Shown in pieces: positions 34,837 to 43,719 of a stretch of DNA of 64,000 nucleotides; the stretch's first letter is position 1, and each line of letters begins with the position of its first letter. The translations under genes were made by a program, and so were the position numbers. The stretch spans positions 30,267 to 94,266 of the forward strand of contig NW_025813865.1 of the NCBI RefSeq assembly GCF_021917145.1. The letters run 5' to 3'. This DNA comes from Hypomesus transpacificus. Taxonomy: Eukaryota > Chordata > Actinopteri > Osmeriformes > Osmeridae. The notes below the pieces were generated by a model that did no database searches, was not told the DNA's origin, and saw only the letters and a program-made list of their open reading frames with translations.

Positions 34837-35776
34837 TTATGGAGCCTTAAACCCAGACTCCTTCTCTGGAGCCTTGGACTCCTGCACTGGGACTGTATAA
34901 CTCGACTTGGACTCAGAGGGTGATGAACAGGTTGCAGCACTGGCACCAGAATCTTTTATTTTACTGAATTTTCTTAGCGACGGTCTTGAGTTCCAACCCA
35001 GTTTTTTGACAAAGATGTATACACATCCAAACAGATGAGGGAATATCTGGATCAGGTCAACAGTGACTGCATCTTCAGGGCTGCATGCAAAAAAGGGGGA
35101 AAACTCAATCAAGTTACACAGGCAGGTTGTGTTGGACAAGTGTGCTAGATGATGTGGTACTGTATTCATACATAGAACCCAAACCATGCAATACCAAAAG
35201 ACACTCCCACAGTGGAGTGACCTCACCAGTGTTGTCTTAGCTTGTATTTAATATAATGAATGAATGTTTCAATACGACTTACTAGTGCTCCAAGAGAATA
35301 CGTATGAAACGTAACAATCCCAGTGTATGCAGTGGGTAGGGCTTCTTCTTGCCATCCAGCTTCTTCACCAACTCAGTGTCCAGCTTAAACACAAAATCAC
35401 AGAAACAAATGATTCTTCTGTCGAGACATTCGGATAATTACCCACTTGCTGTTTGCCTCACCTTAGTCTTCCACTCACTGAAGGACCGGCCTTCAGCACA
35501 TTGGGACATGTCTTCAAGAAGTTTAGGATCTGCATTACGACAATTCTCTGCCTCTGGCTGGTTTCCAACCCATTTCAGGTAATCCACCCTCCTTGAGAAC
35601 ATAATTAATACTTACAGTTTTTCAATACTTATATATATTCCTGAACATTTGTAAAAGCTATAAGAATTGTCTAAAATGAATGGAAAATGTGTGTCTGGGC
35701 TCAACAAATGTGTCAGGAAAGAGTACTGCTCACTTGTCTTCGTCCCAAAAGAAGGGATGTGCCAAGGCTTCTTCCA
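34837..35776 (-). pseudogene. orphan duplicated KEN ribonuclease exons (spliceable)
   Basis: Second copy of the ribonuclease-domain exons of the kinase/KEN gene. Exons, 5' to 3': 35734-35776 (3' remnant of a kinase exon, WDEDK, broken upstream), 35462-35591, 35283-35383, 34837-35080. The 130- and 101-nt exons have the same lengths, phases, acceptors and donors as the originals, and no stop or frameshift interrupts them. They encode WKTK, GLLRFIRILLEHY and FPHLFGCVYIF. Many residues differ from the original (4 of 43 in the first exon, 6 of about 34 in the second), mostly by replacement changes. The last exon ends early: where the original reads KAPEKE this one has KAP then TAA (34837-34839), so the C-terminal repeat tail is lost. 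There is no start or kinase, so alone it is not a gene. It lies downstream of the parent on the same strand and could act as alternative 3' exons, or be a decaying fragment. Confidence 0.75.
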
Positions 35777-37560
35777 AGAGACATAGGCCTATTTACGGAC
35801 GCTATAGAATACATTCATTGACAGAGCCAGAGATACAGATATGAGATCGTACACAAGCACATAGCCTACGTCTCTAGTTTTACCAGCCTTCAAATGTGGC
35901 CATGCATCCCTTTCCCGGTTGCAAAAGTATGTTCCAAAACCTTAACCGCTAGCTTACATTATCATATAATAATGTATTCATTTAGCATATACTTCCATTA
36001 AAACGGGGTGGGCGGATACGAATTCACTTTGTCTGAGTGAGAGGCTGCGCTCTTACCACGAAGCCATACTCATTTGAATATTTGTGTAATTAATATTATA
36101 AGAACCTAAAAATAAATGTTTAAAACGTAAAGTGGCAAAGACGTTACGTTCATGGGCGACATTTGAAAATGACAAAATTGTCCCCACCAATATTTTAGTG
36201 AACTCCTTTGTAATGCAATTTGGATCGATTCCGAAAAAATATTTTGCACAATATATTTGCAAAACGCATTTCCGTCCGTCAGTCATTGTCCGTCGCCCAG
36301 AAAAGTTAAAACAGTTAACCAATGCGCCCTAGAGCCTGCGAGACAAGATTATGTCATTTAATTGGCTGAAATGGAAGTCAGACACACTCCGTGAATCTTG
36401 ATTTAAAGAAAGAGAGCTGTCAGTAGTCTGACACGGTAAACTATGAACAATGTTATGAGGACAACCTGTGAGGTTATGCTGGATTTTACAACGGCATGAA
36501 ACACAATATAGCCAATCACAATCAAGGATGGGAACAACCAGTTTTAGAATACTAAATACACCAGGAAATAATAAAGCCTCATATTAGTATTTCGTTTGGT
36601 CTTTTGATATTTTGGACCCTTTTGTGCATTGTAGATAGGAAAATGTCACCCAAAAATAAGAGATGTATTCTATCGGAAGTATTTTCACCACCCAGAGTAG
36701 CTAGCAAAGTCGTTGTTAGTTAGCAAGTAGGAAAACTACCCACACAGTGCAAACCTGCTAGCCTTACATCGCCACCCATTATACAACGGAAACATGGCTT
36801 GAAAGTTGTTAAAGTAGTAGAGTAACTTTTGCTTGTATTAAATCTATCCCTAGCGTCTGCAATCTTTCGACCAGTGTGTTAGCAGCAGCTGGTCTTGTTG
36901 AAGCCAGAAGGATAAAGCTAATCTACCCACATAATGGGACCGTGCTAGTTTAGCCTAGTACCAGCAGGCTAGCAACTCAAAAGGGAAAAAACTGGTAATA
37001 AGTAGGCCTATGATCCCTTTGGATAGTAACATCCCTATAATCTCGACCAATGTCAGCAGTCAACTAAGCATGATTAGTGTCTGTATTAAATGGATGAATT
37101 ACTGTGCAGGAAAAACGGCACCTTGAAGCTACAGATGTAGAGAGCAGGTTGGTGATGAAACAGCATCAGGGGTTCAGGTGAGAAGTTGAATTGTCCACTT
37201 TTGTAAAGATTGCATTAAATTGCTGTTTTTAAGGGATGTTTAGACAATGTTACCCATGAATGTTATCATTCACACTTATACTTGTAGGTAGTAAAAAGGT
37301 ATAAATATAAATCATTATTTCATTGCTTAGAAGTCCAGTACAGATGATGTAGGCCTAGTACAGCTCCATAAAACCTGAAGGGGGGTGGGGGGGGGGGGGC
37401 TTTAGTGTCCCTACCAAAGCTACGACCAAACCTACGCCCTTGGTTACGTTGTTTATAATACAACAAGATATGATAACATATTTTTGACACTTGCAAATCG
37501 AAACATTTGTCACACAACCTTTATTTATCAAGTTGTCAATCACAATTGTGAGACTGACAT
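35777..37560. other. spacer, nothing recognised
   Basis: AT-rich sequence between the duplication breakpoint and the 15-bp repeat array. A G run lies near 37380. I see no convincing exon, RNA gene or named repeat. Confidence 0.4.
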
Positions 37561-41116: not shown

Positions 41117-43719
41117 CTGTGGGTCGCTGCTTTGGCTCCTTATTGATCATCCACTCAATGAGGTCTTTTGCCACCCTGTCGTCAACGTGCTCCAGATTGT
41201 ACTTTCCTTCATAAATGTTATACTCACAATGGAAACCATCTCCAAATGGGTGATGTCCACCTGACAGGATGTAATAAATCAACATCCCAGCCACCTGGAA
41301 ATGACACATTTAAAGAAAACCAAGCAATCAAGATACAGCTACTTATTGAATATGTGACATCAAAGAAATAAACAGGTGTTGGAACAACCTGGATATCAGT
41401 ACTCTTCTTATATGCTGTGTTGTAGCTGTCATCTAAAGTTTCTCTGGCCTTCCAGCACTTTGTTCCTGCACTGCTCGTGCAAAGTGTTGTTTGTCCTTTT
41501 GGTAAACTTCGACTTATCCCAAAGTCTGACAATCTAGCTTTGTCTGTGATGTCTAAAAACCAAACCGTATAAATCAAATAATTAAGAATAACAGTACTAG
41601 CACAGGAACAAAAGTTAAAGGTTCTTTATCGTTTTTCTATTTAAAAACAGACAAGATGCTTTGAGAAGATTACTGTTATCATGTTACTCATTTTATAGTA
41701 TGCAATAAACACAATAGAGAGATCATTTAACCATCAACCATTTTGTTTGGTCTTACCTATCAAAACGTTCTGTGGCTTAATATCCCGATGTAGAATATGC
41801 GGTAGAGTGTGACAATGAAGCACTTCTAGACTACAGAGTAACTCATGTGCAAATTTCCCCAGTACATTGGGTTGTTTGTTTGAAATGTCATCCTTGATGT
41901 ATTCGTCCAAGGTACGTTCACAAAGTTGAAGAATAAGATAACCAAAGTTTATATCTTCTTCAAAGTCTACATATCTGACAATACAGGGATGGTCCAAATG
42001 TGGAAGATGTAAGAATCCTTTCTCATTCTTAAGAGCTTCATAGTTTGACTTGGACATTCTCTTAACAGCTACTTCCGTGCCATCATCCCTGAGGCCCAGA
42101 AACACCTCTGTACAATCACTTCCTTTTGCTATGCGATATTCTCCAGTATTCACATACGTAAGGTTACCTACTTTAGTGACTTGCCTGTCATCCATGTGAG
42201 CTAGTTTCTCCAACTTGGGCCTCCATCGCTTGCTGATTTCAACCCACTTCCGTGGTTGTGGTGTTTCGGTGGAGTGAAATCGCACAGTACTCTGACTTGA
42301 AAGACCAGATTCTTCAACAGGAGTAGAGGAGGTGGAACAGACAGCGTTGTCTTCGTCTTTCATCTCCTGGATTTGTGACTTTTTGTTCTTTTTCTTGTTC
42401 TTTTTTTTCTTCTTTTTTGGTTGTGATTGATGAGCATTTGAATCTTCACTTGGGTGTGTTGAATCTGTGACAGATGATTGGCTGAAGTATTCGCACAGCT
42501 CTTTCAATTTGTCTTTAAGTGTTCCATCCATCGCCATTCCTGCACATGTGAGAAGTTCCTTTGGCACTGAACTTATTCCAAATGATGAAATGTTGCATTC
42601 AAATGAAAGCAAGTTTGCAAATATGCATAAGGCATGTGTCTTAATGTCTGAGTCTTCTGACTTCACAAATGGGGATATATTGTTGCCTAACTTGTTCAGG
42701 AGACATGAATCCCAGCCCTTTTTAACTACTGTCTTCTGGGTGATCACATACAGTACTCTCAGAACAAGTAGTTGATAATTTTGAATCTTTGTGGAGAGAA
42801 GTTTGAGAAGTAGTTGGACCATCTTAACTGCAACACCAAATGGAATCTCTTCCATGGTGCGGAAAGCTGTATCAAGAACTCTGACTACACTGAATTTTGA
42901 ATGTTCTTTAGGAATTGAGCCAAAACGTTTGATTGTATTCTCAATATAAAAGTCTAGCTTGTCAGATTCTTTCAGCCACATCATGCATTTCTCTCGGTAC
43001 TCCTTCGGTATATTATCAGGCCCATTTACGCCAAACAAAACATCAATCATATTCAAGTGGGTTTGAGGGTTCTCTTCAAGCAAATGTTGGTTGAAAAGAG
43101 TAAAAACCTCACTTGGCTTTTTTTGTTGTACTGCTATTTCCATGTCTAAGTGATGCTTTAATTTGGAAACATCAATAATTAGGTCACCAGCTGATACCAA
43201 ATTATTTATCATTTTAGTAATATTTGTATTAATAGTATGACCATTTGGAAGAGACCCATTAATCACTTTCACAAATGCTCCAGCGGTGATGAGGAGCTGC
43301 CCAATATCCTCTTGGTCAAAATTTGCAGCCATTTGAAAAGGTGTAAAATTGGAAAGACCATTGACATTACCACCATTTGGATCGGCTTTTGCATTGAGTA
43401 GTATTCTTACTATCTCCAGTGGAGCATTGTACATAGAGGCATAATGCAGAGGTGTCCACTCTCTGGATGATACTCGGTTCGGGTCAGCCCCCTCTTCCAA
43501 AAGGAAAGAACAGAGCTCCACATTGCTTGTTGCAACAGCAGCAATCAAGAGGGTGACATCATCATTCCACTCATTGCATGGGTACAGTTCATTTATGTTC
43601 CCACCTCTAAACTTCTTTTGATTAACGTTCCTGGGTTTCCTGTCTATGATGCGTTGTATAAGAGGATCTGTTATCCTTTGGACTTGTGTTACCACTGAAA
43701 TCTCTGGAATGATGTTCAT
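40063..43719 (-). CDS. ankyrin-kinase-KEN endoribonuclease, RNase L/IRE1-like
   Basis: Coding exons, 5' to 3': 41757-43719, 41389-41552, 41074-41294, 40791-40920, 40612-40712, 40063-40420; 2937 nt, 978 aa, all junctions in frame. Domains: about three ankyrin repeats (54-150; GADPN, TPLHYAS); a helical region (about 170-415); a Lys-rich linker (435-448); a protein kinase (about 520-782) with the ATP-site Lys in VAVK (553), HRD (644-646) and DFG (664-666), but ARE where APE is usual; a KEN ribonuclease domain (784 to about 890); and a tail of [12 protein letters not shown] repeats. The KEN part reads like RNase L: Trp823, Arg854 and His859 match RNase L residues I recall as Trp632, Arg667 and His672, while the Asp661 position is Gly848. 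RNase L has nine ankyrin repeats and a kinase-dead domain; IRE1 has a lumenal domain and membrane anchor. This protein has neither layout and shows no signal peptide or membrane segment, so it is probably cytosolic. RNA cleavage on oligomerisation is inferred from the family. The 5'UTR is probably spliced, with an acceptor just before the start codon. Confidence 0.85.

Follow-up and report, generated by a model that had tools for sequence, protein, structure and literature searches.

We analyzed a 64-kb stretch of the Hypomesus transpacificus genome (64,000 nucleotides, positions 30,267 to 94,266 of contig NW_025813865.1, RefSeq assembly GCF_021917145.1; hereafter the window, whose own coordinates are used throughout) and found that a minus-strand gene encoding ankyrin repeats, a protein kinase domain, and a KEN domain is followed by a second copy of its 3′ end. 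This copy is probably a partial tandem duplicate of the gene that is now drifting. A preliminary description of the locus had proposed a switchable cassette that gives one sensor two alternative ends; reading phases and splice sites do permit such a switch, but the evidence leans toward the drifting duplicate. The window forms the end of a 94,266-base contig in an assembly of 437 Mb.

The 3′ End of the Gene Is Duplicated in Tandem

The parent gene, whose 3′ end we call copy A, has six coding exons (43719–40063) and a product of 978 amino acids. Downstream of it and on the same strand, a block of 1.7 kb (35776–34101; copy B) is homologous with 41116–39408, and blastn aligned the two at 83% over 1,293 columns (E 0.0) and at 79% over 418 columns (E 2e-102), far above chance. 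The block contains the last 43 nucleotides (nt) of kinase exon 3, introns 1 to 3, KEN exons 1 to 3, and about 0.67 kb of 3′ flank, and its KEN exon set (35591–34837) is placed 5.33 to 5.34 kb downstream of the gene's own. Introns 1 to 3 were copied along, unlike in a processed (retro) pseudogene.

All parts of the block have the same minus-strand orientation as their counterparts. The upstream border falls within kinase exon 3 (41074–41294 in the parent gene, ending in phase 2 with the donor GTGAGC): a remnant of its end (35734–35776) carries an identical donor, and the homology breaks off abruptly upstream of 35776. KEN exon 1 (copy A, 40791–40920; copy B, 35462–35591) measures 130 nt and KEN exon 2 (40612–40712 and 35283–35383) 101 nt in both copies. 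KEN exon 3, which encodes a linker and a tail of 27-nt repeats, spans 40063–40420 in copy A, ends there with the stop codon TAG, and is followed by an AATAAA signal starting at 40048; its counterpart in copy B is shorter and runs from 35080 to a premature TAA (34837–35080). The 3′ flank of copy B (34101–34770) is homologous with 40062–39408, with AATAAA starting at 34758. The recurrence of three KEN exons on the same strand, with identical phases and splice sites and two equal lengths, was thus confirmed at the coordinates given in the preliminary description; the exons are as it had them, but the duplicated block is longer (35776–34101) and takes in the donor of the kinase exon and the 43 nt before it.

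The two copies are separated by about 3.6 kb of unrelated, partly repetitive sequence, and no close relative of either was found elsewhere in the assembly: the parent gene is found once, and searches gave no further close copy of its KEN part or of its front. A search of the 437 Mb with the copy B protein gave, at E ≤0.5, no relative beyond this contig (all seven candidates scored; six of the nine matches were the window's own), and one with the gene front gave, besides the front itself, two weak ankyrin matches with 40 to 41% identity (37 of 37 candidates scored). The KEN profile identified two loci, C21 and C17 (six of six candidates scored), the frames at C21 reading as IRE1-like; the same search missed the KEN exons of the window itself, and divergent KEN genes could escape it likewise.

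The Downstream Exons Are Compatible with Splicing to the Parent Gene

Donors and AG acceptors are present at matching places in both copies. At all ten letters compared, each of the three donors is the same in copy A and copy B; the three acceptors are similar, with small differences in the tract. A junction from the end of kinase exon 3 at 41074 to 35591 stays in frame, as had been predicted, and we found two further in-frame cross-junctions (40791 to 35383 and 40612 to 35080); each would yield a protein of 940 amino acids, compared with 978 for the gene's own ending. An AATAAA follows the stop in both exon sets (40048 and 34758). Judged by phases and sites, splicing of the kinase exon into the second KEN set is possible.

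Copy B Carries Signs of Decay

The frames of the second set had been described as open throughout. This holds for the KEN core, but the TAA at 34839–34837 is premature: the old frame continues past it for 20 codons (34774–34836) to a TAG at 34776–34774 that is homologous with the stop of copy A, and the residues before this TAG, RSRTV, match the C terminus of copy A, RNRTV. The tandem 27-nt repeats that encode the KAPEKES-type tail are present in 4.9 copies at 40075–40206 in copy A and in 2.7 copies at 34803–34875 in copy B. At the DNA level, the repeat tail, which the second set had been thought to lack, is therefore present in shortened form.

The 3′ flank of copy B, and only this flank, contains an insertion of 64 nt (34495–34558, minus strand). 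A genome search identified it as a dispersed repeat that occurs at 92 to 99% identity in at least 38 other places among the 41 matches listed, a lower bound given that 40 of 674 candidates were scored. Within the KEN domain, codon 93 of the core encodes histidine in copy B, where the IRE1 sequences have the aspartate of a shared PD motif.

Divergence and Probable Gene Conversion between the Copies

The copies differ at 25 of 158 amino acid codons, 22 of them in the KEN core of 122 codons, in line with the more than 20 residue differences noted before. Uncorrected divergence was 0.02 in the 43 nt of the kinase exon and 0.06, 0.12, and 0.12 in KEN exons 1, 2, and 3 (the last up to the copy B stop). 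As the noncoding parts showed similar values (0.06 in intron 1, 0.15 in intron 2, 0.19 in intron 3, which is in part poorly alignable, and 0.12 in the 3′ flank), the KEN exons are hardly more conserved than their surroundings (0.06 to 0.12 versus 0.06 to 0.19).

We studied the substitution counts using simulations of 1500 sequence pairs for each setting, with 0.065 changes per site and branch; these assume equal branches and no gene conversion, and stops were skipped. With copy B neutral and copy A evolving at a ratio of nonsynonymous to synonymous rates (omega) of 0.2, 0.3, or 0.5, the nonsynonymous changes were as many as observed or more in 0.13, 0.26, and 0.52 of the runs, respectively. 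When omega was 0.2 for both copies, or 0.3 for both, this level was reached in 0 of 1500 runs each, and with both at 0.5 the outcome was marginal (0.025). Strong constraint on both copies is thus disfavored, since it gives too few amino acid changes, and the substitutions fit a constrained copy A and a copy B that would be neutral.

The mismatches between the copies were unevenly spread: with the badly aligned block of intron 3 left out, the variance-to-mean ratio was 2.14 versus 0.87 after permutation, and 0 of 5000 permutations gave a value as large. The longest identical run, of 87 nt, exceeded the 99.9% permutation limit of 83 nt, and runs of 81 and 69 nt exceeded the 95% limit of 60 nt. 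Those of 87 and 81 nt span exon–intron borders, as expected of conversion tracts. The long identical runs suggest gene conversion between the copies, to which local constraint could contribute; under gene conversion, exons can stay open without selection for their use.

Active-Site Features of the Two KEN Domains

As isolated pieces, both copies matched the Pfam KEN profile (PF06479) above its cutoff of 23.3 bits, copy A with 39.9 and copy B with 36.6 bits. According to PMC3710099, HEPN/KEN nucleases have an Rx4H motif in which the residue after the arginine is typically polar. The motif is retained as RVLLEH in copy A and RILLEH in copy B; the position after the arginine, which corresponds to N1057 of yeast Ire1, is occupied by valine and isoleucine, respectively. 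For yeast Ire1, PMC3149027 has H1061 and Y1043 as the proposed acid–base pair and N1057 and R1056 as coordinating the scissile phosphate. Both copies have a tyrosine near the position of Y1043, in an uncertain register. The acidic residue that precedes LLR/LLK in the aligned IRE1 and RNase L sequences is replaced by glycine or a gap in both. With two active-site features missing despite the retained arginine and histidine, neither end can be called RNA-cleaving. Of the two RNA-cleaving ends of the preliminary description, the Rx4H motif stands in both copies, but the altered N1057 place and the missing acidic residue leave such cleavage putative and, for either end, unproven.

Weighing the Explanations

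We favor the duplicate now drifting because copy B has no gene front, a premature stop, a repeat insertion, substitution counts that fit neutrality, and a histidine in the PD motif. In this account, which draws its neutrality, gene conversion, and order of events from inference, about 1.7 kb of the 3′ end of a gene found once in the assembly (ankyrin repeats, helical middle, IRE1-like kinase, and KEN domain) would have been duplicated in tandem; unrelated, partly repetitive sequence would have come to separate the two copies, the downstream one being without a gene front. The spliceability of copy B would have been kept mainly by its limited age and by gene conversion with copy A, the copy otherwise drifting. 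If transcription runs through the poly(A) signal at 40048, an occasional downstream ending may result, without a regulated function.

Several observations weigh against this account. The second set retains its six splice sites, and the 122-codon KEN core of copy B is free of stops and frameshifts despite 13 gap runs in 996 aligned noncoding positions. In simulations of neutral decay, the chance of an intact core was 0.07, 0.18, and 0.26 if one-half, one-third, and one-quarter of the changes, respectively, fell on copy B; a version over 157 codons (0.03 to 0.17) is biased, as that stretch was cut where copy B first has a stop, and the core figure is the fair one. The open core hints, as weak evidence, at past or present use of copy B. 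A comparison between the two exon sets gave a nonsynonymous divergence (dN) below the synonymous one (dS), at 0.088 versus 0.186 by NG86 and 0.098 versus 0.143 by YN00 (Fisher P for dN < dS of 0.027 over the full 158 codons and of 0.069 over the core). With both copies neutral, as few nonsynonymous changes appeared in only 0.038 of the runs, and the ratio of nonsynonymous to synonymous proportions (pN/pS) taken alone is compatible with both copies at omega 0.3 (P 0.067) or 0.5 (P 0.41). Copy B, and not copy A, agrees with yeast IRE1 at codons 16, 17, and 46 of the core; IRE1 and RNase L are too distant to polarize the differences between the copies decisively.

The same retained features would serve a working alternative ending, in which the kinase exon, or the gene's own KEN exon 1 or 2, is spliced downstream and the choice between the poly(A) signals at 40048 and 34758 sets the end. 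Matching phases and sites, three in-frame junctions, the open core, an AATAAA behind both stops, and a copy B piece that scores above the Pfam KEN cutoff all speak for it; the premature stop, the inserted repeat, substitution counts that allow for a neutral copy B, and introns and flank about as similar as the exons speak against it, and we consider it rather unlikely. One gene would then offer two KEN domains with 22 differences among the 122 core residues and with tails of unequal length, a prospect that, read from the exon sequences, is equally doubtful. Intact exons together with a lost front would also be explained if the whole gene had been duplicated and its ankyrin and most of its kinase part later removed or replaced, the open exons reflecting past service of a full gene. 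The repetitive sequence between the copies agrees with such a loss, but a search of 35777–39400 for the front or its upstream sequence returned nothing convincing (best E 0.22 by tblastn, and 0.25 by blastn with 41117–48000), and we regard this origin as unlikely.

Much less probable is a separate small gene with a promoter in the 3.6-kb gap and a solo KEN product. PMC3710099 describes KEN genes of this solo kind, and KEN expansions specific to a lineage, in Oikopleura and monocots, and the exons here are open and spliceable; no upstream exon or start stands out, though no systematic search for one was made, and the assembly search gave no additional solo copy. The position of the window at the end of a short 94-kb contig might suggest an assembly artifact, for example a second haplotype placed in tandem. 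We give this the least credence, as the 12% divergence of the flank, the abrupt partial border, the copy-specific insertion, and the 3.6-kb insert exceed allelic difference. The duplicate now drifting thus stays the best explanation.

The Parent Protein and Its Genomic Neighborhood

The parent gene has an unusual makeup: about three ankyrin repeats come first, then a middle region that is mostly helical and a lysine-rich stretch, and last a kinase like that of IRE1 and a KEN domain whose active site is altered. The first coding exon (41757–43719, minus strand) runs from the start ATG through the ankyrin repeats and the helical middle to the start of the kinase, up to HRDIKPQN, and kinase exon 2 (41389–41552, minus strand) contains the DFG; the kinase motifs were recognized by eye in the protein. 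In the whole protein of 978 amino acids, Pfam identified Ank_2 (2.9e-22; best stretch at residues 59–151, about three repeats), Pkinase (4.3e-38; residues 537–778), and KEN (34.2 bits versus the cutoff of 23.3; residues 785–865). It found no lumenal domain, ankyrin repeats standing in its place, and no match above cutoff for the helical middle region. Single-sequence structure prediction for the first-exon protein was poor (mean predicted local distance difference test score of 39.8) and gave a mostly helical region at residues 184–414, nothing more. Compared with solved structures, the C-lobe and KEN segment scored 103.5 bits against yeast IRE1 (3fbv) and 42.8 bits against RNase L.

Single scans of a viral and of a bacterial and archaeal contig collection confirmed no relative of the parent protein, and a search of open-licence literature on fish RNase L and KEN genes and on duplicated or spliced KEN exons gave no title on this gene type among those listed. 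Rfam had no match over 30000–50000.

The sequence between the copies (35777–39407), in which homology to the gene was not detected, contains a retroelement-like tail at 39410–39357, also found at 32808–32861 on the other strand. Inverted arrays of the 15-nt minisatellite unit CATGCCCTCCCGTCT at 39156–39187 and 37558–37667 enclose some 1.6 kb of sequence that may be a mobile element ending in minisatellites. Pfam placed four other genes in the window: a CCDC149-like gene (32252–32647, minus strand), a CCDC96-like coiled coil (46007–46967, minus strand), a TADA2-like adapter (49214–50533, plus strand), and a GrpE-like gene (54479–54829, minus strand). An open frame of 376 amino acids at 24811–25941 (minus strand) is rich in internal repeats and has no Pfam match; it may be part of the neighboring CCDC149-like gene or due to chance.

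Relation to Known Systems

The locus resembles known partial tandem duplications of 3′ ends: exons, introns, and 3′ flank were copied as DNA, the front is missing, the border falls in an exon, and unrelated repeats lie between the copies. Nothing essential sets it apart, although the copy B exons are still in phase with the parent gene and the KEN core is open. With RNase L, which has nine ankyrin repeats binding 2′,5′-oligoadenylate (2-5A), the parent protein shares the order of ankyrin repeats, kinase-like domain, and KEN domain; it differs in having about three ankyrin repeats, a kinase–KEN segment nearer to IRE1, and a replaced active-site asparagine, and the KEN matches to RNase L (4oau_C) were weak (E 0.11 for copy A and 0.46 for copy B). 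The likeness to IRE1 (ERN1/ERN2), in which a lumenal sensor and a membrane anchor precede the kinase, lies in the kinase–KEN segment (1.4e-28 against yeast 3fbv), whereas the ankyrin front, the lack of a lumenal domain by Pfam, the valine or isoleucine at the N1057 place, and the missing acidic residue before LLR set the protein apart.

If copy B is used, the nearest parallel would be OAS2, for which PMC13372824 reports two C-terminal isoforms with different antiviral targets, together with their effects. The p69 and p71 ends of OAS2 are two spliced C termini of one innate-immunity gene of the OAS/RNase L pathway; the difference is that those ends vary in length, whereas the locus described here would exchange an entire nuclease-like domain. 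A second ending in use would thus amount to an innate-defense-like sensor with a swappable effector domain drawn from tandem exon sets, following a logic like that of the OAS2 tails. If the ending is not used, the locus is an example of a spliceable spare exon set arising through partial duplication, and a caution that open, in-phase exons beside a flank diverged by about 12% need not imply use.

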